A DNA stretch of 36,518 nucleotides from Syntrophobacteraceae bacterium. GTDB taxonomy: Bacteria; Desulfobacterota; Syntrophobacteria; Syntrophobacterales; Syntrophobacteraceae. The notes beneath the pieces were generated by a model. It saw only the letters and a program-made list of their open reading frames with translations, was not told the DNA's origin and searched no databases. Position 1 is the first letter of the stretch. Every line of letters starts with the position of its first letter. The stretch spans positions 1 to 36,518 of the forward strand of contig JABUEY010000027.1 of NCBI GenBank assembly GCA_013314815.1, given 5' to 3'. A program made the translations under genes and the position numbers. Positions 10,231 through 30,829 of the stretch are shown piece by piece.

Positions 10231-10238
10231 AATCCCCC

Positions 10239-11405
10239 CTATGAATCGAGCCACCTTCTGAGTGAGTCCATATTCGGCCGGCCGCCGATTCCCGCCCATT
10301 CCTTCAACTCATCGAGACCGAAAACCTGCGGCGTGTTGGGCGCATCCCAGACGTCGGCCACGTCGTTTCGCAGCTGATCCACGAAAGCGCCCTTGGCATC
10401 GCTGCCGTGGAGAAGGCACACCAGGGCCGAACGGGCCAGGTCCCCGCCCAACTGACGAGCCCGCATAGCCACCTCGAAAAGCTTCGACTTGCAGAGGCCG
10501 GTCTTGGTGTCCGTGGTGCAGGAGATTACATAGAGTCGATGGCCTCGGACGAGCGCCACATCGATTTCGCACTGCCTCCCGTTGGCCAGCTTACATTCGA
10601 GGCCGACGGCAATCTCGTCTCCATCGACAATCTGCCGCACCAGGGCGCTGCACCAGGTCTCCAGCCATCCGCCCCCCAGAAAATCCAACCAATTCTCGTA
10701 GGCTTGCCTCTTCCAATGAGCCTCCGGAATCCGCCGAACGCTCAGATCGCCGGGCACCAGTTCGTCAAGTATTACGTCATCAGCCTTTGCTTTTTCAAAA
10801 GACCGACGTTTATTCTTTTCGTCACGATGGATGCCATAGAGTCTTTTTGCGAGGCTTGGGTCATTCAAGACCGCTCCAGCGATGATCCCGGCATCCTCGC
10901 CGGCAGGGCCATCCGGCTGTAGGTGGTCCTCACTGATACGCTTGATTGCGTGAAGCGCAAGAACGTCGCCTAAGGTCAATCGGAGACGTTGTTTTGACAG
11001 ATCCATTTCATAGCCATCGTCGAAACGCAACACCCCTTTCCGCTCATCCAGGTAGGAAGCCTGTTCATCTTTGCCGCCGGATTCCCGAAAGGCCATCCGA
11101 GCATGAGCTGCCATGATCTTTGTGCCCCCGGTGTAGTGAAGGTGAGCATCGGAAGTAATTGAGCCAAACGCCTGCCTGACTTTGGCCGCGCTGGTTACAT
11201 CGTCGATGCATGTTTCATCCAGTTGTGCACCCGAAAGGCCGGTCGTCAGCGCTTCCCAAAGGTGCTTCTTCACTTTTTCCGTTTCCGGGCTGTAGAAAAG
11301 GCGGATGGATTTTGGTTTCAGGATGAGGGCGGTAATGTAATTGGGCAAAGGGTTGGAACCGACGAGCAGGAGAAGTTTATCACATGTCCTTTCTCTTTCA
11401 GTCAT
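10239..11405 (-). CDS. CARF / PD-(D/E)XK nuclease, Card1/Can2-like (DUF1887-type)
   Basis: This is a 388-residue protein. The N-terminal CARF domain begins LLLLVGSNPLPNYIT and has the ligand motif LHYTGGTKIMAAHA near residues 88-101. The C-terminal part is a restriction-like nuclease fold: GGWLETWCSALV (about 245-256), CEIDVALVRGHRLYVISCTTD (about 278-298). Relatives cut single-stranded DNA and/or RNA when cyclic tetra-adenylate binds the CARF dimer. The first acidic residues are present (Glu of WLET, Asp of EID). The usual ExK/SCK element reads ISCTT, with Thr where the lysine is expected; a lysine follows four residues later (TDTKTG). So activity is not certain. The ATG is preceded by GGAGGG and lies 3 bp after the regulator gene. 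cas10 follows after 8 bp. Confidence 0.85.
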   Translation of the reverse strand: MTERERTCDKLLLLVGSNPLPNYITALILKPKSIRLFYSPETEKVKKHLWEALTTGLSGAQLDETCIDDVTSAAKVRQAFGSITSDAHLHYTGGTKIMAAHARMAFRESGGKDEQASYLDERKGVLRFDDGYEMDLSKQRLRLTLGDVLALHAIKRISEDHLQPDGPAGEDAGIIAGAVLNDPSLAKRLYGIHRDEKNKRRSFEKAKADDVILDELVPGDLSVRRIPEAHWKRQAYENWLDFLGGGWLETWCSALVRQIVDGDEIAVGLECKLANGRQCEIDVALVRGHRLYVISCTTDTKTGLCKSKLFEVAMRARQLGGDLARSALVCLLHGSDAKGAFVDQLRNDVADVWDAPNTPQVFGLDELKEWAGIGGRPNMDSLRRWLDS

Positions 11406-12393: not shown

Positions 12394-14002
<1,609 letters not shown>

Positions 14003-14006
<4 letters not shown>

Positions 14007-14539
14007 TCGTTCCTCCTCTCGGGTTTGCGGCTCCCGCCCTTGGTCGCGGCATCGGCGATACCGAAGAAGAGGAACCCGTTCCACTTGCTCCCGGTGACCT
14101 CCTTGGCGATGGCTGAGAGGGACTTGTACCGTCGGCCGTCGAACTCGAAGCCGTTGTCGAGTACCTTGACCACAATGTCGCGGCCTTGGAACTCGCGGGC
14201 GAGCAGAGTTCCGGGCAGCGGCAGCCTCGGGTCGTGCGACGGGGATATGCGGCTGGTCGCCGTTCTCGCTTTGACCTCGGCGGAACCCGAGGCGACCGGA
14301 TCACGCGGAGACCGCGTTCTCAGGTCGGCGTCATTGGCCAGTTCCTCAGCCCTGCGCCGGGCCCGCTCCGAAAGGTCACCCTCCGCCAGAGCCTGAATGC
14401 GCCAGGCGATTCGCTTGCGAAGAAACTCCTTGTGGTAGGAGCGGGTCTCTTCTCCGAAGACCTCGAGGTACTTGTCCCGGAGTTCTCCGACAGTCATCCG
14501 GGAGAGCCCCTGGACCTCTTGATACGTTGTTGCTTCCAT
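14003..14539 (-). CDS. DUF2924 family protein
   Basis: This is a 178-residue protein. The N-terminal half holds LSRMTVGELRDKYLEVFGEE and YHKEFLRKRIAWRIQALAEG, the typical DUF2924 opening. The C-terminal half has LLAREFQGRDIVVKVLDNGF, FEFDGRRYKSLSAIAKEVTG and SKWNGFLFFG. That last block looks like the small DNA-binding-like domain used by many recombinase-associated proteins. The family nearly always lies immediately upstream of a zinc-ribbon serine recombinase, as here, and is thought to be part of the mobile unit; its role is unknown. I chose the ATG at 14539 (MEATTYQEV), which has AGGAGG six bases upstream. Confidence 0.85.
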
Positions 14540-14607
14540 CCGAAACCTCCTTTGCTTCATGGGCTTCGCCCCGGCGGACGGCCCGTCCGCACCGCAATCT
14601 CAGGGCG

Positions 14608-15471: not shown

Positions 15472-18400
15472 CTACACCGATTCTTCCAGGATACGTTTTC
15501 GAGCAATCTGTTCGATCTTAGCAGCATCAATACCTCCATCAGGCGCATCCTGGGATGTGATCAATCGATCCGAAAAACCGTTTTCCTTATACCAAGTCTG
15601 TTTCCGTTCCCACGCCTCGCGATAGCTGGGGACGTTTAGCATACCAAGATGTTCCCAATAAAAAACATCCCCTTCAAAGCTGACCGTGAAGTCAGGAAGG
15701 CGAAAGTCCTTCGGATCAGTCCGCGAATAGAGCGGTTGCTCGTACTCGTAGCTGATCCCAAGCGCATCCAACACATCTGCCACGACAACCTCGCTCTTGG
15801 AGCGGACTGCAATGCCCTTCCGCGTACGATGGATCAGTGCCTCCAGGTGAGGTCGCTTCACATCGTCCGGTCGCAGGGCTATCGTGAACATATGAGAATT
15901 TCGCAACCGAGTGTCCGAGCAGTCCGGGCTGCGTAAACGGCGAAGGGGCTCGATATCCTTTTCGACCAAGAGCACCAGCTTGCGACGGAACCGCGTGAGG
16001 CCGGTGTAGATCAGTTCTCGCGACAAAGTCGAGGCTTTCTGCGGGATGATTAGAAAAACCACCTCGAAGTCGCTCCCCTGCGCCTTATGGACGGTCAACG
16101 CGTAGGCAAGTTCGAGGTATTCGTCAACCTGACCGCGATAGTACCGATAGGAGGCGTCTACTTGCGTTGAAAAAACAGCGGCAAGGACATCGCTGCCTTC
16201 CTTCCTCTTGAAAGCCTCAGTAACAATCCCGATCTCGCCATTGGCGACGTAGTCCAGCCCACTTCCCGTGGGGTAGGCCCATCCATCCTTGCTTCGATTT
16301 CGAACCTGAATAACCTTGTCGGTCCAGACGATCTCATACTCACCGAAAGGCCGTGGCATCTTACTCCATTGACTCTGCGACTTCTGAAGAAGACCTGCCT
16401 TGTATTCTCTCTGGATCAAGCGGTTCAGATCGTCAGTGCCGAAGTGCTGCGCACGAGTGGGAGAGAGGATTTGCCACGCCTCGCTGCGGACCCAGTCCTT
16501 TTGATCGATCCCAAGCGACTGATTAAAGCTCTTGTAGTCGTCGTCACGGATACCAAGGATATCAGCCATCCGCCCCTTGAGCTTGGCAAGCAGATCGTCG
16601 TGGTCGTCCCAAAACACAATATCCAGGTCGCCCATCGACTGGCCCCGAGCAATTGAGGCCAGAATCTCGTCATCACCCGGATTGACGACTGATGTTCGGT
16701 ATCCGTCCGCAAGCGCCAAGGCGACACTCTCCTCGGCTGGAACGCCCTCCTCCTCATCAACGCGCATACAAACTGTGAGTGGAGCAACGCAGTCGGGGTG
16801 GTCTTTCTGAAGCCATTCGATAATGTCAGCGAAGGGCCTCCCAGGGCCAATTGGTGGTAGCTGGTTGGGATCACCCACAAGAATCAGACGACTCAATGGG
16901 CCGGAGTCAAGAGCACGCAGCAATGTCCCAAAGAGGTCCGTTGGGATCATTGAACACTCGTCGATGATAACGGTGGTCGCCTGGAAGGGGCTCTGATCGC
17001 TTTGTTGTTTGATTACGAAAATATCAGGCACGAACCAGCCCTGCTTAAGCAGGAACTGGTGAATGGTCATTGCATTTCGTCCGGTTTTAGTGGAAAGTCG
17101 AACGCGGGCCTTTCCGGTGGGAGCCAACAAGAGCGTCGGATGTCGACCCTCGACACGCACCAATTCCTGAAGAAATACCTTCAGTACCGAAGTCTTGCCA
17201 GTGCCAGCTCCTCCTGTCAGCACGCTCAGTCTTCGCGAGAATAGCGTGGCGAGGGCAGTTCGCTTCTCGGCCAGCGCCGCCCTTTCACGGTCGGATTTCG
17301 GTTCACCAAAGAGCTTCTTTAGCGCTCCGAGCCAGTCAATCGGGGGATCGACCGCCGGATTCGTCTTCTTGGCCCGCCGCTTAATCAGCGAAGCGGCATT
17401 TTCCTCCAGCAACTGGAGATGCTTGAGCGCGACAAGCTCGGGATCGGAGTCGAAAGCTGTCCACATGACTTTTTGATAAAATTCGGCTTCGGCCAATACG
17501 ACTTCACGATCTGGCCGACACGCCCTTCTCTCAGGAAAGCGTCCAATGATCCTGTTCAGAAAGTCAGTGAATGGGAGGACAGTATCTCCGTTATTTGCGG
17601 CCTCCTGGAGAACCGCAACACCAACCGCCCGAACCCTACGCCGGTCGTCGTGAGAGATCTCGTCGGCATCGGGAAACAGCGCGGCATCCCCTTCGGGCCT
17701 CAGGCCATGATCGACTGTTTCCAGCGCCACAGGATCGGAGTCCGCCGACCCAAGGTCGCACTCGGATAGGATGTAGGGATTGGCGACCAAGTCCTTCTCA
17801 GTCGCATCAATTCCGCTCGCTGCACGCTGGTCGGGATTGGCGATCCGCTGCACCTGGCTCGGGGTGAGCTCAAGCCGGACGAGCTTGGACAGCAGCGCAT
17901 GGCGAGTTTTTATGATGCGCCAGCGCTCTCTCGCTTTGAGGAGCCCAACTCGGTAAGGTCCATTGTCCGGCTCGCTCCTCCCTTCAAGGATTGACAGGAC
18001 GTAGTCCCATGAATTTTCACCCCGTTTTGCCATTGGTGCCAGCACAGTTCGCTGGAACGAGGTCCCCTTCGAAAACCCGAGGTACTGGAGCACGCTGCCA
18101 GCGCCAGGGAACGGGCCTCGACCGCTCCATGCCTCGGCCAGAACGTCGTTTAGCCAATCGAGGCGTCTTTCCCAGTCAGAAGCGACGTGCCCATCAGCCT
18201 TGACGCGCTCCATACACTGGATAACGCGCTCAATGATGGCAACCGCCACGTCGTCGGAAACATGTTCCCCTCCATACGAGAATGGAAGCAGCGCGCTCCT
18301 CGGAACTCGGCAGATGATATCGTCAGTGCTGTGACCATCCCGCAAGTATTCTTGGTACGGGATACGAACCCCCTGTTCGGGGTACGCCTGGGTAATCCGT

Positions 18401-19023
18401 CGGGACCAAACTGGATACTGATCTTGGTACTTTGGGGTCGTGCCAAAATAGATCTGAGGCCCAACCTCAGCGATCCTTCCAATACCGACAATAATGCGCG
18501 GCGAGTTTTCATCAAGAGGATTCCCATGGTTGCAGTAATAGAAAACAAGGGAGTTCTTTGGCTCAAGTTTTCCCCAGAATCGCTTGAGAAGCTCACGCTG
18601 GCGGTCAGGCTCGAAAACCCAACCATTACTTCGCGAATTGTCTGGCCCTCGAAGTGATATATCTTCAGCCTCGCAGACCTCTTGGACAAATTCCTCTCGC
18701 ATCCAGCGATAAGGAGCTGGGCACGACGAATACGGAGGGATGTCTTCTGAGACCGCCGGCAGCCTCCGAAACTCAAGCGGGTCTTGATGTGTTATTGAAA
18801 ATCCTCTTTCTGCGTAAGCGCCCGGATCACGAGAGCATGGGGGTAACCAACCCTCCAAGTCTGCAAGAGGCTTTCCGGCTGATCCGCGCTCCTTTTCATC
18901 GTCCCGCGAGTCACGTATGTGTTGGTGGACAATACAGTGAGCGTTGAGGTGCGGCTGGTCACATATGTGGCCATCCCAGGCCCGATCATGCCATGCCAAC
19001 CTTACTGAGAGATGCATGGTCAT
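15472..19023 (-). CDS. RecD-like SF1 helicase with C-terminal PD-(D/E)XK-type nuclease domain
   Basis: This is a 1183-residue protein. Walker A is GGAGTGKTSVLKVF (about 604-617), motif II is VIIDECSMIP (about 687-696), and VGDPNQLPPIGPG follows as motif III. ALTVHKAQGSDFEVV near 976-990 is the RecD/UvrD C-terminal motif, and YTGLTRFRRKLVLLV is motif VI. This is an SF1B (RecD2/TraA-like) 5'-3' helicase core. Residues about 1070-1150 look nuclease-like: RSKSEVVVADVLDALGI, then RLPDFTV, then YWEHLGML, giving E...D...ExH. The 600-residue N-terminus has helical hairpin-like segments but no named domain that I recognise. The translation start is uncertain: ATG at 19023 or 19017, with weak ribosome-binding sites. 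It follows the sacsin-like gene by 27 bp and is the last gene of the operon. By eye its GC content is below that of the hsd genes. Confidence 0.85.
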   Translation of the reverse strand: MTMHLSVRLAWHDRAWDGHICDQPHLNAHCIVHQHIRDSRDDEKERGSAGKPLADLEGWLPPCSRDPGAYAERGFSITHQDPLEFRRLPAVSEDIPPYSSCPAPYRWMREEFVQEVCEAEDISLRGPDNSRSNGWVFEPDRQRELLKRFWGKLEPKNSLVFYYCNHGNPLDENSPRIIVGIGRIAEVGPQIYFGTTPKYQDQYPVWSRRITQAYPEQGVRIPYQEYLRDGHSTDDIICRVPRSALLPFSYGGEHVSDDVAVAIIERVIQCMERVKADGHVASDWERRLDWLNDVLAEAWSGRGPFPGAGSVLQYLGFSKGTSFQRTVLAPMAKRGENSWDYVLSILEGRSEPDNGPYRVGLLKARERWRIIKTRHALLSKLVRLELTPSQVQRIANPDQRAASGIDATEKDLVANPYILSECDLGSADSDPVALETVDHGLRPEGDAALFPDADEISHDDRRRVRAVGVAVLQEAANNGDTVLPFTDFLNRIIGRFPERRACRPDREVVLAEAEFYQKVMWTAFDSDPELVALKHLQLLEENAASLIKRRAKKTNPAVDPPIDWLGALKKLFGEPKSDRERAALAEKRTALATLFSRRLSVLTGGAGTGKTSVLKVFLQELVRVEGRHPTLLLAPTGKARVRLSTKTGRNAMTIHQFLLKQGWFVPDIFVIKQQSDQSPFQATTVIIDECSMIPTDLFGTLLRALDSGPLSRLILVGDPNQLPPIGPGRPFADIIEWLQKDHPDCVAPLTVCMRVDEEEGVPAEESVALALADGYRTSVVNPGDDEILASIARGQSMGDLDIVFWDDHDDLLAKLKGRMADILGIRDDDYKSFNQSLGIDQKDWVRSEAWQILSPTRAQHFGTDDLNRLIQREYKAGLLQKSQSQWSKMPRPFGEYEIVWTDKVIQVRNRSKDGWAYPTGSGLDYVANGEIGIVTEAFKRKEGSDVLAAVFSTQVDASYRYYRGQVDEYLELAYALTVHKAQGSDFEVVFLIIPQKASTLSRELIYTGLTRFRRKLVLLVEKDIEPLRRLRSPDCSDTRLRNSHMFTIALRPDDVKRPHLEALIHRTRKGIAVRSKSEVVVADVLDALGISYEYEQPLYSRTDPKDFRLPDFTVSFEGDVFYWEHLGMLNVPSYREAWERKQTWYKENGFSDRLITSQDAPDGGIDAAKIEQIARKRILEESV

Positions 19024-19050
19024 GCTTTCTCACCCATGTTGCCTTCCATG

Positions 19051-22000
19051 CTAATCCTCGCTCCTTCCTATTTCTTCGAGAATCGTTTTTATATCGCAGA
19101 GATGGGTCTCGACGAACTGAATGGTCGTTTCAAGATCGCCGAGTCGCAATGGAGCCTCCAATGAGTCCATATTCAGAAGAGCCTTTCTCAGATCGGCCAT
19201 AACCGCTTCGTCCTTCTTGCCAAGCTCTTTGTACATTGCAGCGCAAAGTGGGCATAGGGCCAAAAACTGTGCCTCATGCTCCAAGGGCAATTGATCCTGA
19301 GAGAATGCCTCGACCGCTTCGAAATAGTACTGGCCGTCGCGTTTTCTGAAAGGCATTTCCTTCTTGCAGATCTGACACACCATTTGGCCGTTATCGTTGG
19401 TATACTGTTCTCTGAGCCATAGAGAAGGGTCGATAGCGCCTCTGGTTGTCCGAACGCTTCTTTCGCGCTCTTCATATTCCTTTTTTGGGGATTCGGAGAG
19501 CTGGTCTGTTATCCGTTCCTGCCGACGTTTTGGATTCGTAACCGTCCTTGTTGGGAATGTTGGTTTACTATTCCTTGATGCGATTTCAGCCTTTAGCTGA
19601 GCAAACTCGTCCGGATGTCTCTTCAAAAACTCTATATCCTCAAGAGAGACTCCGAGTATATTGGCATGTTGGCGTTTATTATCGTCTTCAGATGATGCTC
19701 TCCACCCGACACCTTGATTAATACCGAGAGCATCAATCAATTCCTCTGCCCCTTGAAAGTCATCAAGAAGCTGATCTGTGTTAATATCCCTCGGTTTTTC
19801 TATGCTCCCGTCCCGCGTAGGAATCCACTTCGTGTTCCTAAGGCGTGTCAGCATTTGAGAGTCGAAGGACTTGCTATGGGCGCTATAGTAAAACCAATGA
19901 TAGCGACCTCTGAAAAACCAGGAGTCCAATTCCAAATGCTCTTTAAGATAGCCCCACAGGATGAGAGCAGCTTTCGCCTTATCTTCAAAACCCTGAACTG
20001 CCTCCAAAGATTGAAGGAAATCATCCAGCCCATGAAGGTTATAGTTCTCGATTGTCTCGGCACGAGTTGAGTATTCACTTACACCAGGAGGCAAGCCATC
20101 AGAAAACAGGATGCGCCGCGGGAGAGTCGCAATGCCAAGGTCGGACAAAATGCCTGGGGATACTGAAGCCATCGACTGTTCGGATAAGAACCACGCGTCT
20201 GTCGAACCGGAAAAATATAGCCGCAAATTCGGACTTTCCTGGTAGACATCGAGCGGCCTTTTATATGCCAGGTTTCCAACAGGGGCGACAGCCTTGAGAA
20301 AAGGTGTTTGCTTTGCCTTCTGGATCACTCTTTTCTTACCGACCTCCGAGTCAGAGGTCAAAGCGCGGAGAATTTTGCGAATGTCCGCCTCATGCTCGGA
20401 CTCGGAAATCAAGGATAGATCACTTTTCGAGTACTTGGGTAGAACCCTTTCGACGATGTCATCAAACACGTCCGGTTCTAATAAACCCAACCGATTTAGG
20501 AAATTTCCCGCCTGCTCATCGCTTGCAATCGCCCGCTTCACAATCGGGAAGTCGGTGTCTTCGGGAGGAGGCAAAAAGGCATTTGGAGTTGTGCCGTCAG
20601 CCCGGAAAGGTATCACATGGCTATCATCTTGAAGACGGACAATAGGCTTGGAACGGAGAAGGCCTCCCGAATCCCCAGACCACCTTGGAGAACGCCAAAG
20701 TGCCTCTTGGCCAGACAAGTACCCATAAAACTCCAACAGCCATTCATCGTCTTGTATAGACAAAAAGGAATGGGTGATTCTTCGGGCAAAGCTATCGGGC
20801 GTGATCTCCTCGACCTTCAGTTCATTAAGCAAGTATGACCGTAGCTCCGGGGTTCGATCCTGAGTAATGGAGCCAGCCAGCCATTTGACAGTTGCTTCTG
20901 ATTGAAAGAGTTTGCGAAGCTGTTCATGATCCAACAGTTTTCTAAGGTCAGCGCCACGAGCTAGTTTCGCATTTCGCGCTGAGACGAAGCTGCCATCATC
21001 TGCGGGCAATAGTTCATTGACTGCAAGATTATCCCGAACCGAGGTGACAATCGGCAGAAACATGCTGCCTGGAGGAAAGTCGTCCATCCTTATTGGTAAC
21101 GCTTCAAGCAGTGAGACACCCAATAGACCAAGGTCCTTGAGTTGCGGCAACACTTCTGCCATAAGACAAGCAGTCTCGCGCACCAAGGTCGCGTTCCAAT
21201 CGTCCTCTTTCGGAATATTGTCCCTTGCCGGCGTGGTCTTGTATGGACCCTGAATCAAAAATCCTAATCGGGTTTCTTTTTCGGTCGGAAAAAAGACCAC
21301 GAGAGGTGAATCCTTGATTCTTGCAACCTCTTCCAGTTCTTCCCCCTCATTCCGTTGAAGGCGAAAACCGATCTCGACCGAGACTTGACGTGGACATTCC
21401 TCGGCAGGTTCAGGCACATCCACGGGCCGTTCAAAGAGCAGCCAGCTCTCGCTTTCATCCTCGCCGTTGTTCTGCCCAATAACCGTTACTTCCAGAGCAC
21501 TGCCTCGTGCAGTCTCGTCTCGCAGATAAACACCACCCATCCCAGCCGGCAGTTTGTACTCGATCTCCCTGATCCTTCGGAGAAAAAGTAGTGTCCTGGC
21601 GCTCAGCTTACGAAGTCTTGTACTTATCTCTCTGCATGCGGTTGCCGGTTCCACCTCCTCCTTATTGAAGGGAAAAACGAAGAGCGTGGTCCATGAATCA
21701 TCCATATTTCGCTTCTCGATGGCATATGGCCGCACATAGTTCTCGATTCTGAAGCTTTCATCGCCTGAGTGAATCTCTGGTGTCGTCGTGTAAGCGTAAA
21801 CTGACTTGAAACCGATTCCGAACTTGCCGATCTGAGTGAGATCTTCAACCTTTGTTCCTGCGCCCACCCCGCAAATTCCGCGCACATCCTTTTCATCAAA
21901 CGGCCGACCGTCATGAAAAACCTCGAGCTTGCCTTCAAGAAGTTGAAAAAGGACCCTCGATGCACCGGCATCCTCAGCATTTTGTAGAAGTTCAAATATG

Positions 22001-22107
22001 AAATGGGTTCGGTCTGTGTACAGCCTGCCCAGAAAGGACAGATGACGTGTTCCTTGACCGTATTCAATGATGTTGTCGACACGTATTTTGTCGTAATTAC
22101 TCGGCAT
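19051..22107 (-). CDS. Sacsin-like GHKL ATPase with C-terminal Cys4 zinc domain
   Basis: This is a 1018-residue protein. The N-terminus is a Bergerat-fold ATPase: FELLQNAEDAGAS (N-box, about 39-51), VFHDGRPFDEKDV (G1, about 62-74), and IGKFGIGFKSVYAY (G2, about 90-103). This arrangement is that of sacsin/HSP90-like repeats. The long middle has no domain I can name. Near the C-terminus CQICKK (about 908) and LEHEAQFLALCPLC (about 940-953) form a CxxC...CxxC treble-clef site that resembles HNH domains. The final histidine and asparagine of an active HNH are not evident, so nuclease activity is doubtful. The start is ATG at 22107 with GGAG upstream; TTG 22122 and ATG 22116 are alternatives. It overlaps the SNF2 gene's end by 11 bp, so co-translation and a joint function are likely. 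Confidence 0.85.
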   Translation of the reverse strand: MPSNYDKIRVDNIIEYGQGTRHLSFLGRLYTDRTHFIFELLQNAEDAGASRVLFQLLEGKLEVFHDGRPFDEKDVRGICGVGAGTKVEDLTQIGKFGIGFKSVYAYTTTPEIHSGDESFRIENYVRPYAIEKRNMDDSWTTLFVFPFNKEEVEPATACREISTRLRKLSARTLLFLRRIREIEYKLPAGMGGVYLRDETARGSALEVTVIGQNNGEDESESWLLFERPVDVPEPAEECPRQVSVEIGFRLQRNEGEELEEVARIKDSPLVVFFPTEKETRLGFLIQGPYKTTPARDNIPKEDDWNATLVRETACLMAEVLPQLKDLGLLGVSLLEALPIRMDDFPPGSMFLPIVTSVRDNLAVNELLPADDGSFVSARNAKLARGADLRKLLDHEQLRKLFQSEATVKWLAGSITQDRTPELRSYLLNELKVEEITPDSFARRITHSFLSIQDDEWLLEFYGYLSGQEALWRSPRWSGDSGGLLRSKPIVRLQDDSHVIPFRADGTTPNAFLPPPEDTDFPIVKRAIASDEQAGNFLNRLGLLEPDVFDDIVERVLPKYSKSDLSLISESEHEADIRKILRALTSDSEVGKKRVIQKAKQTPFLKAVAPVGNLAYKRPLDVYQESPNLRLYFSGSTDAWFLSEQSMASVSPGILSDLGIATLPRRILFSDGLPPGVSEYSTRAETIENYNLHGLDDFLQSLEAVQGFEDKAKAALILWGYLKEHLELDSWFFRGRYHWFYYSAHSKSFDSQMLTRLRNTKWIPTRDGSIEKPRDINTDQLLDDFQGAEELIDALGINQGVGWRASSEDDNKRQHANILGVSLEDIEFLKRHPDEFAQLKAEIASRNSKPTFPTRTVTNPKRRQERITDQLSESPKKEYEERERSVRTTRGAIDPSLWLREQYTNDNGQMVCQICKKEMPFRKRDGQYYFEAVEAFSQDQLPLEHEAQFLALCPLCAAMYKELGKKDEAVMADLRKALLNMDSLEAPLRLGDLETTIQFVETHLCDIKTILEEIGRSED

Positions 22108-25100
22108 GGGACGCATCTCCAACGATCTGAATCACTCCGTATGCCACTGGCTCCGCGGTTATTTCCGCCTTTTCCATGGCGATGTCCAGTTCTTGAATGC
22201 GTCTTGCGTAGTCCGCCTCGGCCGCGGAGATTTGAGACTGGCGCATTCTCTGAATCTTTTCGTTGTCTGCCTGTCTGAGCTGTTCTTCAAGAAGCGCTAT
22301 CCGCGCCCGATGACTCGTTGTAAGGCTTTCGCGGCGAAACTGCGCCAATTCTTGCGTTTTCTGTCGATGTCTCGCCCGTGCATCGGACCAAAGCTTGTAA
22401 TGTTGGCCGTCCAATGCATCCCAACATGCCGAATCAACTTCCTTGGAAATATCGGCATCGAGGTCTGTTGCCTTCTCAAGCAGGCGGCTAAGATATGGTG
22501 TGACCGCTTCGGCGGAAGCGACTGGCCGCAATACCAAATCCTCCTTGATTCCGTGAAACCGCCATTGATAGATGGCGAACTCATATCGACCGGTGGGAAC
22601 ATCGTTGGCCTGAACCTTTAGCGTGGCGACTGCACGTTTCTTTATATTAAATAATAACGCAGCCTGCCGGACCAAGGGATGTAGAGGCATAATGAATGCG
22701 GCCTCCGGATGTTGTAAAGCGCAGTCAGATTCAAAGGTGATGAGCAGGTGGGGATTTCCTCCTTTTAGCCAGTTTTCCCAATCTTTAAAAACAGTGGTGT
22801 TTTGTCTGGGAAGTTGCTGGAAATCACGCAGCAGGATAGTCCTGGCATCTTGCGATAAACGAAGCGTTTTGAGAGGTTTCTCGCTAAGGATGTAGTCCTG
22901 CTCTCTGCCACAAACCTTTTGTAAATAGAGGGTGACAATCCTTTGTACGGAAATAGGGGCTAACCAAAAGCTTGACGCCTCCTCGATTTCTTTCCTCATC
23001 CGGTCTTCGGGCAGGCGGATTCCAAAGAGTTCCATTTGACGCTGTTCGAGTTCCTCTTGTTCCTGTATCAGACGGATCTTGTTGTCCGCCAATTGCTGGA
23101 GTTTTGCCTGGCGGTCCTCCTCGCTCAAGGTGAAGTTATCTGCGATGTCTCTAATTTCCTTGGTGATTTCCCCCAAGATTTCTTCGCTGCCGCCTAAGGC
23201 GCTGTTGAACACTCCTATGCGCAGAAGGCACCGCTCGTAGATATCAGCGTCGACGGTGCCCGGCGTGATCAGGTTGATTATGGCAACGCTTTCGCTTTTC
23301 TGGCCGTTCCGGTCGATACGGCCAATCCGTTGCTCCACACGCATCGGATTCCAGGGCAAATCGTAGTTCACAATGCAATCGCAGAACTGATAGTCTAAAC
23401 CCTCGCAGCCAATTTCCGAAAACAACAAGACATCCAAGCTATCCGCATCGTCTCGATGCTTTTCGAAGCGGCCCCGGAGATCAACACGCTCTTCATCCGG
23501 TGTTCCGCCGTGTATCATCCCGACGCGAAAGCCATCCTCGCTGAGATGGCGATAAAGGTAATTTAGCGTGTGTCTGAAGCTACTAAACAGCATTACCTTG
23601 TTGTTGGGCAGCTTCTGCTTGTTCCGGATGGTGGTCCGTAGTGCCTCAAGTTTCGGATCGTCGGGGTCGAGTGATCGCGCACTCTCAAGGATCGATTGGA
23701 TTTGCGTCTGTATTGTGTCTACAGCTTCGCCACGAGGAACAGCTTCCGTGTCATCTGCTTCCTCCCAGGACAGCTCGTCAAGATGGCGGTTCAGGATATC
23801 TTCAAGAAAAGGCGCGAGCCCGAAAAGACAACTCGCGGCTTGGCGTCTGATCGTGGTCATCATGAACTTGACGTTGATATCTCCATGAAGGCGGGCGAAT
23901 ATGTCGGCCTGAACCCGGAGAAGTTCGTCATGCAGTCGCTGCTGAGCAGGAGTAAAAGGAACGACTACCGTCTCAGGTTTACGTATCGTGAATTCGCCTA
24001 TGTCCCTCCGGCGAGTCCGGTTTATTATTCCTGCGAAAGTGTGCATGGCTTCAAGGTCTCTAATGATCTGCACACGTTCCTCATTTGGGACGTCGCCTTC
24101 GGACAGTCTGGAACGTATTCGGATAAATTCCGGATTGTGGCGCAGAATAGCCTGACCCCAAGACGTAGCCGCAGCTTGATCAAGGGCCTCTCCTGACCGA
24201 GTTTGCCATTCCGGGTCTTGAACCCGTGCAAGCGATATCGCTTGGTTAATGTAAGGGTTTGGCTCCGCAATGTGCGCAAAACTCTCCTGATCAATGATCA
24301 GATCGGGACGGAGCGTATTCAGGAGGATGAAAAGGTCATTACTTCCGAGCTGGATCGGTGTCGCAGTCAAGAAGATGACAGCCTCAGCGTGGTCACAGAA
24401 AAAGCGCACAGCTTTGTGGCTGAATGTATCCTGATTTCGGATATGGTGCGCCTCGTCAACGATGACGAGATCGAAGCGAGGAGGCGGGTCGAGGTCAAGC
24501 AACCCCTTCTTGCGCTTTCGCTTGCCGTCTGGTCCTGAACCATAAAGCAAAACTTCATCGAACAAGGAATAGGGAACAATCACCCTCTGATGTTGCTCAG
24601 GCCAGACGCCTTCAAGGTGCATCTCGTTTATGCAGTAGCGCAGGGTGCCACCATCGAGATGTGTGAAACGTTCCTCGAAGCGCTTCATCTCGTTCATCCA
24701 TTTGCGCTCGGTTACCAACGGGCGAGGGCACACGATGAGTACTGACCGGATATCACGTCTTGCCTGCAATTCGCGGAGAATAAGTCCTGCCTCGATGGTC
24801 TTGCCGACGCCAACACCATCGGCGATCAATAATCGCGGTCGATCCGATCTGATGAACCTCAGCACGGGGCGAAATTGATACGGTATAAAATCGACACGTG
24901 CGGCGTTGAGCGAATAGAGTGTCGATAAACTGGGATATCTGATTTGCAGCGCGGTTAGGTAGGCGTGAAACTGCTCACAGGGGAAGAATTCAGTGTCATC
25001 GTCGGGAACATCTTCAGCTTGTAGCTGAGATGCATAGAAGGTCTGGGTTTCGCCATTTACGAAGACCTTGAAGCGATTTTCCGGTTTACCCGGCATGACC

Positions 25101-25702
25101 GAAATCACCGCGCCCCGAATAGATGTGTTGGACCGGACACATACGATCTGCCCCGGTTCAAATTCGGCACCATCCCCTTTGTTTGTCTGGGGCGGCTTAG
25201 GGGCAGCCGCATCGGTTTCTGAAGGCGATTCAGTTTCTTTAACAAGGAGTGACGTCTTTAAGGATCGTACCTCTTGAATCAATGCTTCATTCGCTTCGAT
25301 CACCACGGCAAAACGCTGGAGTGTGTCAAGGTCGCGGTATACATCGTCGAGGGGGAAGCCTTCAGTGGTCACATGGGCCCACCGGTTGCGGATCGTTTGC
25401 ATCTCCTTGACGAAATGACGCGATTCTGACGTCAGGCCGAGTTTATTAGAAATCTGATACCAGTTCTGATCGAGCACTCGAAGCAGGGCGGCGAGGTCCA
25501 GAGCACCCAGGGATGCTATGCCCCGTTGCTCCATCCGCCGACGTTGCTGAAACGACAGGCCATTAAGGACGGCTTCCTTCCACCAATCTGCAAAGAGGGT
25601 TGGCAGCACCTTCTCAAGAAAAAGGGTAAGCTGTTTGGCCACCTCGCCTAATAGCTTCGAGATGGCGGCTTGGGTATGTTGATCATTGAATTGGTCTGCC
25701 AT
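22097..25702 (-). CDS. SNF2-family helicase with N-terminal Swt1-type HEPN domain
   Basis: This is a 1201-residue protein. Residues about 1-140 form a helical Swt1-like HEPN domain. It contains FVKEMQTIRNRWAHVTTEGF, in which RNRWAH is the R-x4-H ribonuclease motif. Residues about 160-230 contain a small beta domain (GQIVCVRSNTSIRGAVISV). The SF2/SNF2 motor follows: LLIADGVGVGKTIEAGLIL (about 294-312), LVIVDEAHHIRNQ (about 414-426), IFLTATPIQLGSNDLF, and MRVEQRIGRIDRNGQ (about 790-804). The C-terminal 350 residues are largely helical, ending in a coiled coil (LLEEQLRQADNEKIQRMRQ). It most resembles SNF2-like helicases found in defence loci such as DrmD of DISARM, but no DrmA, DrmB or DrmC is present. 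The start lies 14 bp after the small Cys-rich gene; its ribosome-binding site is weak. Confidence 0.88.
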   Translation of the reverse strand: MADQFNDQHTQAAISKLLGEVAKQLTLFLEKVLPTLFADWWKEAVLNGLSFQQRRRMEQRGIASLGALDLAALLRVLDQNWYQISNKLGLTSESRHFVKEMQTIRNRWAHVTTEGFPLDDVYRDLDTLQRFAVVIEANEALIQEVRSLKTSLLVKETESPSETDAAAPKPPQTNKGDGAEFEPGQIVCVRSNTSIRGAVISVMPGKPENRFKVFVNGETQTFYASQLQAEDVPDDDTEFFPCEQFHAYLTALQIRYPSLSTLYSLNAARVDFIPYQFRPVLRFIRSDRPRLLIADGVGVGKTIEAGLILRELQARRDIRSVLIVCPRPLVTERKWMNEMKRFEERFTHLDGGTLRYCINEMHLEGVWPEQHQRVIVPYSLFDEVLLYGSGPDGKRKRKKGLLDLDPPPRFDLVIVDEAHHIRNQDTFSHKAVRFFCDHAEAVIFLTATPIQLGSNDLFILLNTLRPDLIIDQESFAHIAEPNPYINQAISLARVQDPEWQTRSGEALDQAAATSWGQAILRHNPEFIRIRSRLSEGDVPNEERVQIIRDLEAMHTFAGIINRTRRRDIGEFTIRKPETVVVPFTPAQQRLHDELLRVQADIFARLHGDINVKFMMTTIRRQAASCLFGLAPFLEDILNRHLDELSWEEADDTEAVPRGEAVDTIQTQIQSILESARSLDPDDPKLEALRTTIRNKQKLPNNKVMLFSSFRHTLNYLYRHLSEDGFRVGMIHGGTPDEERVDLRGRFEKHRDDADSLDVLLFSEIGCEGLDYQFCDCIVNYDLPWNPMRVEQRIGRIDRNGQKSESVAIINLITPGTVDADIYERCLLRIGVFNSALGGSEEILGEITKEIRDIADNFTLSEEDRQAKLQQLADNKIRLIQEQEELEQRQMELFGIRLPEDRMRKEIEEASSFWLAPISVQRIVTLYLQKVCGREQDYILSEKPLKTLRLSQDARTILLRDFQQLPRQNTTVFKDWENWLKGGNPHLLITFESDCALQHPEAAFIMPLHPLVRQAALLFNIKKRAVATLKVQANDVPTGRYEFAIYQWRFHGIKEDLVLRPVASAEAVTPYLSRLLEKATDLDADISKEVDSACWDALDGQHYKLWSDARARHRQKTQELAQFRRESLTTSHRARIALLEEQLRQADNEKIQRMRQSQISAAEADYARRIQELDIAMEKAEITAEPVAYGVIQIVGDASHAE

Positions 25703-25716
25703 GTGCCATTCCCGTT

Positions 25717-25965
25717 TCAGGACCCATCAGGGGAAGATGCTACTGCCGCCCTCATTTCGTGCGCCAATCCCTCAAGCTCTTCTCGGGCCTTCTGCAGAAT
25801 CAACGCTGCGCATTCCATGCAGTAGTTGTTCTTCGACATGTTCTCCTTGATGACCAAGCATTTGTCGCCCTGGCAGATAACGTGCTCCTGGTTCCGCGAA
25901 CAGTGTCTCCGCCGCTGGGCGGTTTCGAAGCAGGCGGAGACGAGAAGGCGTTTCAGCTTGGGCAT
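25717..25965 (-). CDS. Small Cys-rich, probably zinc-binding protein
   Basis: This is an 82-residue protein of unknown function. Cysteines at HCSRNQ, VICQGDKCLV and NNYCMECAAL could form one zinc site (CxxxxC, CxxC). A helix follows (ALILQKAREELEGLAHEM). A strong AGGAG ribosome-binding site lies seven bases before the ATG. It fits between its neighbours with gaps of 3 and 14 bp, so it is very probably expressed with them. It could be an adaptor, a regulatory subunit or an antitoxin-like protein; nothing in the sequence decides. Confidence 0.7.
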   Translation of the reverse strand: MPKLKRLLVSACFETAQRRRHCSRNQEHVICQGDKCLVIKENMSKNNYCMECAALILQKAREELEGLAHEMRAAVASSPDGS

Positions 25966-25968
25966 CGG

Positions 25969-27828
25969 TCATCTCCTTGAAAGGCGCTCCTGGATTTGGG
26001 CCTGGACGTCGTCCCCGATTTGGTCGATCTGTTCCAGAACCTCCTCCAGCCGCTCCAGCGGGATTTCGCCGCGGGTTCCACCGTCCGCCTCGAGCCGCTC
26101 ATTGACGACCCCGTTTACGATCATGATGACCGCCGCATAGTTGTTGGCGCTTCTCAGTTCGGGGTAGGCCATCACGATGTTGCGCCCGTTGATGGATGCG
26201 CCGAGGGCGTTCAGGATTCTGCTGGCCAAGGCCCGGGAGCGCTCGTTGAGCCTTCGGCGGGCCTCCTGTCGTCGTCGTTGGGGCGTGACAGGTATTTCCC
26301 GAGGCTCCATGCTCTCGCGGGTCCGAGCCTGGATGAGGCGCTGGCGGAGGTTTTCGCGGGAAAGCCCGAGGGCCTCGGGGTCGAGACCGCGTCTCCGGAA
26401 CTCCTGGACGAGGTCGTCGATCACGGCGTCATCCATCGGGTCGAGGTACGCCTGCTCGATGAAGTGGCTGATGATCTCGTTTTGAACAACCATGTCCTGT
26501 GTCAGGCGTCTTCGGCGGCCCGGCTCATCGGCCGGGGGACGCTCGTCACCCGCTTCAAGCCAGCCCTGGATGAGTTCCTGGTCCTCCTGGTCGATCCGCC
26601 GGAAATCCTCCCAATGACGGTCGATGTTCAGCCCTACGTGGGAGACCGCCACACCCCGGTTGTCCGGGTGTTGGGGATTGTTCTGGTGGATCACCCTCAT
26701 TACCCTTCCGATAAATTGGACATAGGGCGACAGCGACCGGAAGGGCTGGAAGATGGCGGCCACGCTCAGGTTTGGGTGATCAAATCCCTCCCCGAGCATC
26801 CGGACCTGGACGATGCAATCGATCCGGCCGCGGCGTAGGTCTTGGAGCACATCCTCAATTTCCTCCGCCGGCATGTTGCTGTGGATTTCACGCGCCTGCA
26901 GACCGCGCTCGGCGTAAAGGGACCGGACCTGGCGGGCGTGGTCCACCGAACATGCGACCGCGATCACTTGATGGAATGTGCCGGTCTCCCGGAGGTGCTG
27001 AAGCCACTGGATGCTGGCGTCCACGATTGACCGGTTGCACTCCGGCGCGAGGGCCACACCCCGGCTGAACCATTCCTCGTCCCGGAGTTGAAGGACCTCT
27101 TCGAGCGTGTGCCGCCGGGCATCTCCGCGATAGGTGAAGGAGATCTCCTCCGGCGCGACGTTCACGGCGGTGATCTGCTTGATGTACCCACGCACCATGG
27201 CCGTCCGGAACGGATACGCGTAAACCCGCTCGCCGACAATCTCGCGTCCGTCGCCCCTGAATGGCGTGGCGGTCAGGCTGACGACCTTGGCGCTGGGGAA
27301 CCGCTCGAAGACCCGCTCCCAGCTCCTGGCCACATTGTGGTGCCCCTCGTCGACCAGGATCAGGTCGAAGAAGTCATCAGAAAAGGCAGGAAGCCATCGG
27401 TCGGCCCGACTGGCCAGTTGCTGGATGTTGGTGACCACGATGTGCGAGTTCTCGCAGTCGTGGATGTTCGCATCCTGGCCGTCCAGGACGGCCGTGAAGG
27501 GACCATGACTCACGTCTGTCAACACGCGCGTGGATGTCCAGAAGCACTCACGCCCAGCGACGTCGAAGGCAGTGGAAATGCCCCGACGAATCTCAAGGTT
27601 CGGAGCAATCACCAGCACCCGCCCTTGGGCGGTCTCAAAAGGCAGCAGGGCCATGAGGCCAGTCTTGCCGCAGCCCACCGGAATCTGGAGGATGGCGTGC
27701 TCGGTGCTGTTCCGGAAGTGCTGGCGCGTGCGAAACCATCCCTCAACCTGGGGATCGCGCAGGTCGGGGTTGCCCTGGATAAACGCTCGGGTATCGTTGA
27801 AAAACCGTGCTATTTCTTCATTTGTCAT
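25969..27828 (-). CDS. SF2 (DEAD/DEAH-type) DNA helicase
   Basis: This is a 619-residue protein. Motif I is LQIPVGCGKTGLMALL (about 46-61), motif II DLILVDEGHHNVA (about 155-167), motif III VVSLTATPFRGDG (about 182-194) and motif VI YVQFIGRVMRVI (about 366-377). These are the motors of type III restriction/ResIII-like and XPB-like translocases. The C-terminal 220 residues are helical and Arg/Glu-rich, with no nuclease motif that I recognise. It overlaps the end of hsdR by 11 bp, which ties it translationally to the restriction genes although it is not a normal part of type I R-M. It may supply a second motor to the helicase group that follows. Confidence 0.87.
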   Translation of the reverse strand: MTNEEIARFFNDTRAFIQGNPDLRDPQVEGWFRTRQHFRNSTEHAILQIPVGCGKTGLMALLPFETAQGRVLVIAPNLEIRRGISTAFDVAGRECFWTSTRVLTDVSHGPFTAVLDGQDANIHDCENSHIVVTNIQQLASRADRWLPAFSDDFFDLILVDEGHHNVARSWERVFERFPSAKVVSLTATPFRGDGREIVGERVYAYPFRTAMVRGYIKQITAVNVAPEEISFTYRGDARRHTLEEVLQLRDEEWFSRGVALAPECNRSIVDASIQWLQHLRETGTFHQVIAVACSVDHARQVRSLYAERGLQAREIHSNMPAEEIEDVLQDLRRGRIDCIVQVRMLGEGFDHPNLSVAAIFQPFRSLSPYVQFIGRVMRVIHQNNPQHPDNRGVAVSHVGLNIDRHWEDFRRIDQEDQELIQGWLEAGDERPPADEPGRRRRLTQDMVVQNEIISHFIEQAYLDPMDDAVIDDLVQEFRRRGLDPEALGLSRENLRQRLIQARTRESMEPREIPVTPQRRRQEARRRLNERSRALASRILNALGASINGRNIVMAYPELRSANNYAAVIMIVNGVVNERLEADGGTRGEIPLERLEEVLEQIDQIGDDVQAQIQERLSRR

Positions 27829-30800
27829 TTGCGGCTTCGGCCTCCTCCCGGATCTTCTCGTAGACCTCCTTGAGGAGGTGTTGGCTGACAGCCTCGCGGA
27901 ATTGATCCTCGTTCATGAACTTGGCTGTGATCTCCTCGTTCTGCTCCATGCGGTCGATAAAAAGCCCCTCCAAGGCTTTGCGGAAGACGTAGCCGAAGTT
28001 CTCCATCGTGTTGGCGAGCGCGGCTTGACGGAGGCTGCTGTCGGCCACGGCGTCCTCGCGTATCGATTCGAAAAACAATTGGTCACCCGGCTTGAACTCC
28101 GTTCCGAACCGCTCGTTGAGAAGGTCGATAAGCTTGGACAGCTCGATCTCATCACCTCGAGCGACGCCGGTGCCCACAGACGTCGGCCCCGACACCTCGT
28201 ATCGGGCTCCCGGCTCCATGACGATGGAGCCCTCGCCGATCTTTTGCAAACGGTAAAACTTGAGCGCCACGTCATCATCAAAGTTGTAGATCGGTCCCCG
28301 GTTTTCTCTCGGCAGTTTGGTAAGCAGAAACCGGACGTATGAGTACAGCTTTTCCAAATCGGAGTCCTGGAAGGGGATCACCTGCGACATGAAAGAATAG
28401 AGGTTTCTGAAAGCGACCAACGTCTTCCGGAACTCCTCCCGGACCTCTTCCTCAAGTCCGTTGTAACGATTCACGGCCGGATCAATGCATGCGTTCATCC
28501 TGGCGTGGTCGGCGTGTGTTTGATTCTGTCGTGGTCTGTAGAATACCTTGCAGAACTCCTCGACCTCGGCCTTGTAGTAGACCTGGTGTCCGTCCAATTT
28601 GGCCTGAAGCTCGTAAAGCTGCTTCGGCTCGGCCCTTTCGCCGATGATCGTTTGCTCGTAGTAGGGCTGGAAGGCCTTCAGTATCTCTTCTGGTTCGTTG
28701 ACGAAGTCGAGAACAAAGGTATCTTCCTTGCCCGGATGGGTGCGGTTAAGCCGTGAGAGGGTTTGGACCGCCTGGATTCCTGCGAGCCTTTTGTCCACGT
28801 ACATGGTGTGAAGAAGCGGCTGATCGAATCCGGTCTGGTATTTCTCCGCCACGAGCAACACCTGGTACTCTTCTGTACCGAAGCGTTCGGGGAGCTCCTT
28901 TTCCCGGATGCCTTTGTTCATACCGACTTCCGTATACTCCACGCCGGGCGCATCCGGATCGATCACCGTGCCGGAGAAGGCAACCAGCGTCTTGATTCCC
29001 GTGTACCCTTTCTCGGCGATGTACTTATCGAATGCCTGCTTGTACTTCACCGCGTGCAATCGGCTGGAGGTGACCAGCATCGCCTTGGCCTTTCCGCCGA
29101 TCTTGTGCATGGTGAAGTGGCGGAAATGCTCGACCATGACCTCCGTCTTTTGTGCGATGTTGTGCGGGTGGAGACTCATGAAGCGGGCGAGCGCCCTTGC
29201 TGCCTTGCGTTTGTCCACCTTGGGATCGTCTTCGATGGACTTGATCAGGCGGTAATACGTCTTGTACGTCGTGTAGTTTTGGAGCACGTCGAGGATGAAA
29301 CCCTCGTCGATGGCCTGACGCATGCTGTACAGATGAAAGGGTTGCGGCTTGCCATCCACGCCGGGAGTGCCAAAGACCTCCAGCGTCTTGTACTTGGGCG
29401 TCGCGGTAAAGGCGAAGAAGCTGATATTGGGCTGGCGGCCGCGCTTGGCCATGGTCTTGAGGATTTCCTCTTCGTAGTCGGGCAGCCCTTCTTCCTCAGC
29501 CTTCGCTCTGGCTTCTTCTTTGATTGCTGCTCCTGCGAGCACACCCTTGAGTTCGGTCGCCGTCTCGCCGCCCTGAGAACTGTGAGCCTCGTCCACGATC
29601 ACCGCGTATCGGCGCATGGGCAAATCGCCCATCTTCTCGGTGACAAAGGGAAATTTCTGGAGCGTCGTGATCACCACCGGCACACCGGACCCGAGGGCCT
29701 CGGCCAATTGGGTCGAGTTGATGTCGATCTTCTGGACCACGCCCTGCTTGTGCTCGAACTGATAGATGGTGTTCTGGAGTTGCTGGTCGAGGACTACCCG
29801 GTCGGTAACCACGATGATCGAGTCGAAGACCTTTTCGTCCTTTTCGGTGTAGAGGCTGGCGAGCCGGTGGGCCAGCCAGGCAATGGAGTTGGACTTGCCG
29901 CTACCGGCGGAGTGCTGGACAAGGTAATTGGTCCCAGCCCCCCGCACCCGGGCGTCGGCCACGAGCTTCCTTACGCAATCGAGCTGGTGATAGCGTGGGA
30001 AAATCATCGCCTCCCGTTTCACCTTCTTGCCGCCGAGCTGCTTCTCCTCGACCTGGAGGTGAATGAACCTCGCCAGGATGTCGAGAAAGCTGTGCCGCTC
30101 CAGGACCTCTTCCCAGAGGTAGGCGGTTTTGTAGCCGCCGGGGTTCTCCGGGTTGCCTGCGCCGCCTCCGCAGCCCTTGTTGAAAGGGAGAAAATAGGTG
30201 CTGCGGCCGGAAAGCCGCGTGGCCATGTAAACTTCGTCGGTGTCCACGGCGAAATGGACCAGCGTGCGTTTTTTGAACTGGAAGATCAGATCCGCCGGGT
30301 CGCGGTCGTTCTTGTATTGGGTGATGGCATGCCGCCAGGTCTGGGCGGTCATGGGGTTCTTGAGCTCCAGTGTGGAGACAGGGATGCCGTTCAAGGCTAA
30401 AGTCACGTCCAGTGTGTTGCCGTGCTTGGCGGAGTAGCGAAGCTGACGGGTGACCGTGAGCCGATTGGCCGCATAGAGCCTCTGGGTGTCCGGGTTCATC
30501 CCGCTCGCCGGGGCGAAATAGGCCATGCGGAAGAGCTTGCCGAAGCATTTGAAGCCGTGGCGCAAGACGGATAGGCACCCTTCATGTTCGGAGTTCAGCG
30601 CCCGGCAGAGGTCGTCCAGCAGAATGCCTTCGGCTTTCTCCTTTTGGAGATTGGCGAGGTATTCCCATTCCTTGGGCTGAGTTGCCTGGATGAACGCAAT
30701 CACATCGGCAGGAAACAGGGCGCGGACCGGGTCGAACGCCTCCCGGTCGCCTTTCTCGTACCCGCCTGCCGAAGTCAGGTGGTGTTCGATGGCGGTCTCA

Positions 30801-30829
30801 AATGCGTGTTCGGTGTGTTGGCCTGGCAT
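27818..30829 (-). CDS. hsdR: Type I restriction enzyme R subunit HsdR
   Basis: This is a 1003-residue protein. The N-terminal nuclease domain has LDVTLALNGIPVSTLELKN (about 139-158), giving the D...ExK catalytic set. The translocase has HSAGSGKSNSIAWLAHRL (about 305-322), VIVDEAHSSQGGETA (about 407-421), FFAFTATPKYKTLEVFG, and LSRLNRTHPGK as motif VI. HsdR uses ATP to pull DNA past the bound complex and cuts it when translocation stalls. All key motifs are intact and the length is usual. Its ATG shares a base with the hsdS stop (TGATG). Confidence 0.95.
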   Translation of the reverse strand: MPGQHTEHAFETAIEHHLTSAGGYEKGDREAFDPVRALFPADVIAFIQATQPKEWEYLANLQKEKAEGILLDDLCRALNSEHEGCLSVLRHGFKCFGKLFRMAYFAPASGMNPDTQRLYAANRLTVTRQLRYSAKHGNTLDVTLALNGIPVSTLELKNPMTAQTWRHAITQYKNDRDPADLIFQFKKRTLVHFAVDTDEVYMATRLSGRSTYFLPFNKGCGGGAGNPENPGGYKTAYLWEEVLERHSFLDILARFIHLQVEEKQLGGKKVKREAMIFPRYHQLDCVRKLVADARVRGAGTNYLVQHSAGSGKSNSIAWLAHRLASLYTEKDEKVFDSIIVVTDRVVLDQQLQNTIYQFEHKQGVVQKIDINSTQLAEALGSGVPVVITTLQKFPFVTEKMGDLPMRRYAVIVDEAHSSQGGETATELKGVLAGAAIKEEARAKAEEEGLPDYEEEILKTMAKRGRQPNISFFAFTATPKYKTLEVFGTPGVDGKPQPFHLYSMRQAIDEGFILDVLQNYTTYKTYYRLIKSIEDDPKVDKRKAARALARFMSLHPHNIAQKTEVMVEHFRHFTMHKIGGKAKAMLVTSSRLHAVKYKQAFDKYIAEKGYTGIKTLVAFSGTVIDPDAPGVEYTEVGMNKGIREKELPERFGTEEYQVLLVAEKYQTGFDQPLLHTMYVDKRLAGIQAVQTLSRLNRTHPGKEDTFVLDFVNEPEEILKAFQPYYEQTIIGERAEPKQLYELQAKLDGHQVYYKAEVEEFCKVFYRPRQNQTHADHARMNACIDPAVNRYNGLEEEVREEFRKTLVAFRNLYSFMSQVIPFQDSDLEKLYSYVRFLLTKLPRENRGPIYNFDDDVALKFYRLQKIGEGSIVMEPGARYEVSGPTSVGTGVARGDEIELSKLIDLLNERFGTEFKPGDQLFFESIREDAVADSSLRQAALANTMENFGYVFRKALEGLFIDRMEQNEEITAKFMNEDQFREAVSQHLLKEVYEKIREEAEAANDK

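Follow-up and report, generated by a model that had tools for sequence, protein, structure and literature searches.

The window analysed here is one entire contig of 36.5 kb (36,518 nucleotides; JABUEY010000027.1) from the draft genome of a Syntrophobacteraceae bacterium (GCA_013314815.1; 4.06 Mb, 97.7% complete), which carries three very large genes in a row on the reverse strand: a HEPN-SNF2 helicase (gene 1; 22097–25702, an open frame of 1201 residues), a sacsin-type GHKL ATPase (gene 2; 19051–22107, 1018 residues from the ATG at 22107, the mechanical open reading frame (ORF) beginning upstream at a TTG at 22122) and a RecD-like superfamily 1 (SF1) helicase with a C-terminal nuclease (gene 3; 15472–19023, 1183 residues). 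Genes 1 and 2 overlap by 11 bp and a gap of 27 bp separates genes 2 and 3; these lengths and spacings, as given in a preliminary description made from the letters alone, were all correct when the ORFs were checked, and its domain calls were confirmed by Pfam for all three genes. The comparisons below point to gene 1 as the core of a two-gene pair, to gene 2 as its exchangeable partner and to gene 3 as an optional accessory.

Gene 1 possesses the Pfam domains HEPN_Swt1 (5e-18, residues 18–135), SNF2-rel_dom and Helicase_C. Within the Swt1-type HEPN domain (25298–25651, reverse strand), the sequence RNRWAH (residues 105–110, at 25373–25390) fits the Rx4-6H motif of active HEPN RNases, such that RNase activity is predicted for gene 1, and none of the 16 fused homologues examined, the window protein counted, has lost the motif RNxW[AS]H. 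The helicase motifs of the SNF2 translocase core (residues 264–888; 23039–24913, reverse strand) are also intact, including a Walker A GVGVGKT at residue 296, DEAHH at 416 and a motif VI EQRIGRIDR at 790, and the nearest solved structure to this motor is RapA.

Gene 2 matches SACS in Pfam (1e-18) and NF047352 in NCBIfam, and among solved structures is best matched by sacsin SR1 (5v47, 1.6e-17). The GHKL ATP-binding region (21133–22026, reverse strand), which is the most divergent part between otherwise near-identical loci, has both Bergerat motifs, ExxQNAxD and GxxGxG, present as ELLQNAEDA and GKFGIGFKS. The predicted structure is of moderate quality (predicted local distance difference test (pLDDT) 71.7, predicted template modelling score (pTM) 0.45), with sacsin SR1 as the top match at low TM-scores. 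At the C-terminus, an HNH-like zinc domain (residues 878–970; 19213–19491, reverse strand) is HNH-derived, based on profile matches to EcoKMcrA (6ghc; E 3.9e-10) and TagI (0.0012). Alignment with McrA and its relatives indicates that the window protein keeps the zinc cysteines and that the catalytic H/N/H are replaced in it and in most of the family members seen, while the sacsin proteins of two loci (L068 and L069) keep H, N and H. In the window protein this C-terminus probably binds DNA or a partner.

Distribution of the pair and exchange of its sacsin gene

A scan of 84,980 species genomes, aimed at close relatives of gene 2 only, returned 11 loci, with a homologue of gene 1 or its 3' end adjacent wherever upstream sequence was present. 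Searches with gene 1, in genome sets that overlap in part, found homologues in 8 of the 395 genomes searched from the phylum, 3 of 246 from a second phylum, 1 of 301 from a third and 7 of 194 from one order, and a scan of viral contigs with gene 1 added further pair loci. Searched from either gene, every readable locus has a sacsin gene, or an interrupted remnant of one, following the helicase; the total is four plasmids and, counting the window, 24 loci from bacteria or metagenomes. The 11-bp overlap recurs in approximately 10 of the loci and most others have spacings between -17 and +5 bp. By these sequence comparisons, genes 1 and 2 are shown to form an obligate pair, predicted to be translationally coupled, across several phyla. 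Two distant SNF2 helicases (L046 and L047, ~31% identity), for which tblastn gave no sacsin match, mark the edge of the family.

The pair is sparse, occurring in 1–4% of genomes, is carried on plasmids and a viral contig, and has restriction, Qat-like or HmaC-like defence genes as neighbours. Copies that look decayed, with insertions or frameshifts, are present at four loci (L004, L030, L032 and L034). By eye, apparent IS66-like and IS256-like elements in L034 (6434–13919) separate the SNF2 gene from its HEPN part and disrupt the sacsin gene. Four genes resembling QatABCD, also by eye, lie directly upstream of the pair in L070 (4028–8800), ending 50 bp before gene 1, and in a Sulfuricurvum plasmid (L016) a sacsin-type gene precedes annotated qatABCD.

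Identity to the window is high and fairly even along gene 1 and patchy along gene 2. Two comparisons of closely related loci illustrate the difference: the helicases of L008 and L032 are 93% identical as protein and 92.1% as DNA and those of L055 and L067 are 95% and 93.4% identical, while the sacsin ATPase regions of the first two share only 30% and those of the second two 33%. In both comparisons DNA homology breaks exactly at the start of the sacsin gene and returns near its 3' end, and the 11-bp overlap is preserved even across the swapped genes. In L055, gene 3 is preceded by a 60-residue piece, left behind the new sacsin gene, that most resembles the A-type C-terminus (40% identical to the window protein; the C-terminal region is 69% identical to L067 over 64 residues); the piece is read as a probable scar of sacsin replacement. 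Among loci whose helicases share 65% identity or more (69 pairs of loci), the identity of the sacsin proteins spans 29–95% and is uncorrelated with that of the helicases (r = 0.10), and the reverse case exists in L005 and L033 (sacsin 83%, helicase 63%). Further, the N- and C-terminal types of the sacsin protein occur in all four combinations (A/A in the window, A/B in L008, B/A in L007 and B/B in L032). Judged from these alignments, cassette replacement of the sacsin gene is shown to occur while the helicase gene ahead of it stays nearly identical, with the N- and C-terminal modules reassorting as well.

Gene 3, composition and genomic surroundings

Gene 3 possesses the Pfam domains AAA_19, AAA_30 and UvrD_C_2 (RecD-like), and its nearest solved structures are RecD and RecD2 (RecD fold with Z 20.6, root-mean-square deviation 3.5 and 349 aligned residues). 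A PD-(D/E)XK nuclease domain (residues 1073–1160; 15544–15807, reverse strand) carries RSKSE, PDFT, EHLG and K in succession. In the alignment of the gene-3 family, GxAGxGK and DExSM of the SF1 motor are invariant, as are RSKxE, PDFT, EHxG and K of the nuclease, which is predicted to fold as an alpha-beta-beta-beta-alpha-beta core (pLDDT about 80). The model is weak overall (mean pLDDT 51) outside the helicase core and the nuclease domain, and the N-terminal ~450 residues gave no identified fold.

Of approximately 20 loci, four have gene 3 after the pair: immediately after it in L005, L055 and the window, and at a distance of several hundred bases in L069. As it is carried by only ~8 of 589 sampled genomes, this recurrence is beyond chance (rough binomial 1e-4), though the association is inflated by clustering in defence islands. 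Only one of 10 other pair genomes has gene 3 anywhere, and among the 194 genomes of one order gene 1 is present in seven, gene 3 in five and both in one. A maximum-likelihood tree of gene 3 requires three changes of the pair-linked state, and on this tree gene 3 is placed as having joined the pair at least three times independently. Elsewhere the family occurs alone or beside type I restriction-modification systems, PLD-type helicases and methyltransferases. A different helicase-nuclease occupies the third-gene slot in L015 (annotated there as TM0106 RecB-like) and probably in L068. The neighbourhoods, the co-occurrence and the gene-3 tree speak against the trio as an obligate unit, such that, of the single machine proposed in the preliminary description, the recurrent linkage stands and the obligate part is confined to genes 1 and 2, with gene 3 an optional, repeatedly acquired neighbour.

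A search of viral contigs with gene 3 alone gave no match, and a search with the family alignment recovered, apart from L055, four members (full or partial), none of them accompanied by the pair; no second copies of genes 2 and 3 were found in the source genome. In L033 the ORF directly downstream of the pair (16252–17205), which weakly matches SIR2, is a possible alternative third gene, and an ORF that by eye resembles an ADP-ribosylglycohydrolase (20798–21757) comes after gene 3 in the viral contig L055.

Composition was compared against a host background of 41 genes sampled from contigs of the same genome. The guanine-cytosine (GC) content is 52.1% for gene 1, 49.3% for gene 2 and 55.3% for gene 3, compared to 58.3 ± 2.2% for the host sample and 53.7–62.5% for the adjoining restriction genes. 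At third codon positions, the GC content (GC3) of the three genes is 0.57, 0.51 and 0.60, compared to 0.67 in the host sample and 0.78 in hsdM, hsdR and the RadD-like gene. In codon usage the genes of the trio lie 0.13–0.16 from one another and 0.22–0.33 from hsdM, hsdR and the RadD-like gene, and only gene 2 falls outside the host range (0.213 versus a maximum of 0.187 for large host genes). Composition sets the trio apart from the restriction genes and makes a modest case for a single shared arrival. The lower GC noted by eye in the preliminary description was borne out by GC and GC3, and the three genes do recur together in other genomes and differ in GC and codon use from their neighbours here; its further suggestion that the block entered as a unit is weakly supported, as the codon usage of the trio is alike and distinct from the hsd genes but only gene 2 lies beyond the host range.

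Upstream of the pair, and outside it, lies a type I restriction run (25969–35389, reverse strand) of a RadD-like helicase, an HsdR-type protein, HsdS, a DUF1016/YhcG nuclease and HsdM. An 82-residue cysteine-rich ORF (25717–25965, reverse strand; spacings of 3 bp and 14 bp) bridges this run and gene 1; it has no Pfam family and was absent as a neighbour in the other loci compared. As this ORF fills the space upstream of gene 1, hsdM through gene 3 constitute a single co-directional run of nine genes in which every gap is at most 27 bp. Downstream, gene 3 is adjoined by a DUF2924 gene and a large serine recombinase (12963–14560, reverse strand). This recombinase has 373 residues, and a longer relative in viral contig L089 (663 residues, 67% identical) is located ~6 kb away from a gene-3 homologue; a similar-looking DUF2924/recombinase pair lies immediately upstream of an SNF2 helicase in Shinella (L046). 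Further downstream are type III CRISPR genes (803–11405, reverse strand), encoding Cas10-like, RAMP, Card1-like nuclease and APE2256-type proteins.

Proposed function and alternatives

A sensor-effector defence machine, as the preliminary description put it, can reasonably be inferred from the domain content, the defence-island context and the cassette exchange. In the interpretation favoured here, to which a probability of about one half is assigned, genes 1 and 2 would constitute a two-component anti-phage module with the sacsin protein as a variable recognition switch, the HEPN domain as a co-effector and gene 3 as an option. The RapA/DrmD-like SNF2 motor would patrol DNA or transcription complexes, and the sacsin protein, through ATP-driven opening and closing and its HNH-derived C-terminus, would respond to some feature of the invader. 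This engagement would license the motor and free the HEPN RNase, resulting in a translation stop or cell death, while gene 3 may unwind and degrade invader DNA or could equally serve restriction systems. Such a pair would travel in defence islands and would here have been appended to the type I restriction run. The sacsin protein is assigned the recognising part because the exchanged versions diverge in sequence but keep their domain types; replacement of an effector usually changes the domain, as in CBASS and Avs. Based on this pattern, we infer that sacsin exchange tracks phage recognition.

Several points weigh against this interpretation. The proposed function is read from sequence only, and GHKL sensing by bacterial sacsin proteins was not found to be established in the literature. 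The exchange could reflect escape from phage inhibitors and not recognition, and two of the four records behind the swap cases come from metagenomes, where chimaeric assembly is possible, though the open frames and the kept 11-bp overlap argue against it. The HEPN domain is missing from L011 and L065, the motors of which are 70–74% identical to that of the window, and from the Rhizobiaceae and archaeal versions; as some pairs lack it, HEPN cannot be an essential effector everywhere and, going by its conserved motif and patchy presence, is best read as a selected yet dispensable co-effector, a role likewise proposed for HEPN fusions of DndF (PMC10853773). A separate HEPN gene upstream in Rhizobiaceae and Methanomethylovorans was considered and rejected, the small genes there having no Pfam match or convincing motif. 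At the HEPN position, the Rhizobiaceae pairs carry a gene of 176–184 residues that is sigma-factor-like by eye (L013, 5146–5676; L015, 5133–5687; L045, 5142–5672).

Two alternatives assign the roles of sensing and execution differently. All three genes could be one obligate machine, in which the HEPN-SNF2 and sacsin proteins sense and the RecD-like nuclease executes, and the above-chance placement of gene 3 after the pair at four loci (L005, L055, L069 and the window; ~1e-4), the other helicase-nuclease in the same slot of L015 and probably L068, and the similar codon usage of the trio are all consistent with it; such a machine is nevertheless unlikely, given that most pair loci lack gene 3, that one of 10 other pair genomes has it, that gene 1 and gene 3 coincide in one genome of the order in which they occur in seven and five of 194, and that at least three separate joinings, frequent occurrence of gene 3 alone or with restriction systems and an association inflated by defence islands point to an optional neighbour. 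It is similarly improbable that the helicase senses invader DNA or stalled transcription and the sacsin protein acts as effector, with exchangeable sacsin-HNH proteins as alternative killers or nucleases. In the window protein and most members seen, other residues stand at the HNH positions, even if L068 and L069 keep an HNH-like H/N/H set, and the swapped versions keep their domain types, unlike the usual effector swaps of CBASS and Avs. Helicase sensors with separate effectors are known, as in Hachiman (PMC12278908), which speaks for that arrangement.

The remaining alternatives place the pair outside an independent defence system. A functional dependence on the adjoining type I restriction run, as regulators or helpers of HsdR, could be read into the single nine-gene run with spacings of at most 27 bp and into the pairs of L008 and L055, which also lie downstream of type I restriction genes. 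It is doubtful, however, as most other pairs have no adjoining restriction genes (L009, L010, L029, L030 and L033) and composition divides the trio from the hsd genes. A housekeeping or stress role, as a RapA-like transcription-recycling or protein-quality pair under the control of the HEPN RNase, would agree with RapA as the nearest solved structure to the motor and with sacsin as a chaperone-like ATPase in animals (PMC3710099), but is very unlikely: the presence in 1–4% of genomes, the decayed state of some copies with their apparent insertion elements, the carriage on plasmids and a viral contig, the defence genes nearby and the exchange of cassettes are what would be expected of a defence gene and not of a core gene.

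The two-component module favoured above might, tentatively, represent an undescribed class of bacterial innate immunity. In such a class, an exchangeable sacsin-type GHKL receptor would be coupled with a constant HEPN-SNF2 motor and specificity would change by whole-gene swaps behind a fixed coupling junction, comparable to the diversification of hsdS or NLR-like receptor genes. Many bacterial defence loci contain sacsin-type GHKL ATPases to which no role has been assigned, and if the receptor reading is true, bacterial sacsin/Hsp90-like ATPases would gain a direct role as invader-recognition switches. Near-identical helicases with unrelated sacsin partners constitute a natural experiment, from which the ATPase emerges as the part that probably bears specificity or is engaged in the arms race, and the natural sacsin variants supply ready-made pairs for comparison. 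Telling the two-gene unit apart from the optional helicase-nuclease matters for naming, annotating and cloning.

Comparison with known systems

No described system with these parts was found in PADLOC, NCBIfam or the open-access literature, subscription papers and supplements being outside the search and an existing name possible. The main texts on ARMADA (PMC12458937), BREX-related systems (PMC12839542), DefensePredictor (PMC13092281) and Dnd-related systems (PMC10853773) make no mention of an SNF2 helicase partnered by a sacsin or GHKL protein, and the pair apparently combines known domain types in a modular arrangement new to the literature.

Among defence proteins, gene 1 from residue 181 is most like DrmD of DISARM (377 bits in PADLOC, 314 in NCBIfam), which shares a large SNF2 helicase within defence islands. 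Gene 1 differs in the N-terminal HEPN domain, the obligate sacsin partner and the lack of adjoining DrmA, DrmB and DrmC, and falls below the DrmD cut-offs (313.8 bits versus 610 for NF038317; 141 versus 950 for NF038318). Neither DrmA nor DrmB was found among the window proteins scanned, and the only MZB/DUF1998 domain of the genome is on another contig; membership in DISARM is rejected based on the sub-cut-off helicase score and the lack of DrmA and DrmB alongside. Residues 33–505 of gene 2 match the N-terminal sacsin-type ATPase region of TmtA from Tiamat (218 bits). As the best match spans only 36–513 of the 1302 residues of TmtA, the N-terminal third, and gene 2 is paired with a helicase and has an HNH-like zinc domain at its C-terminus, membership in Tiamat is likewise rejected. 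Gene 3 matches the PADLOC candidate PDC-S68 over its full length (1174 bits; protein residues 2–1177, profile positions 5–1218 of 1221), with the difference that PDC-S68 is listed as a single-gene candidate and gene 3 is placed after the pair.

Hachiman and Druantia III are two-part helicase systems in which a sensing part is coupled to a nucleic-acid-degrading part (PMC12278908, PMC13192584); the comparison is an analogy of logic only, with no kinship claimed, and no sacsin ATPase is described in either. The closest published statement is the note on Swt1-HEPN and SNF2 operons in PMC3710099, which describes operons of the Ava_2192 type where an AAA ATPase carries the Swt1-like HEPN as a fusion and DUF3883 is joined to the SNF2 helicase. 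These operons share with the pair a Swt1-type HEPN and an SNF2 helicase in a restriction-associated setting, whereas here the HEPN domain is fused to the helicase itself and the partner is a sacsin ATPase.

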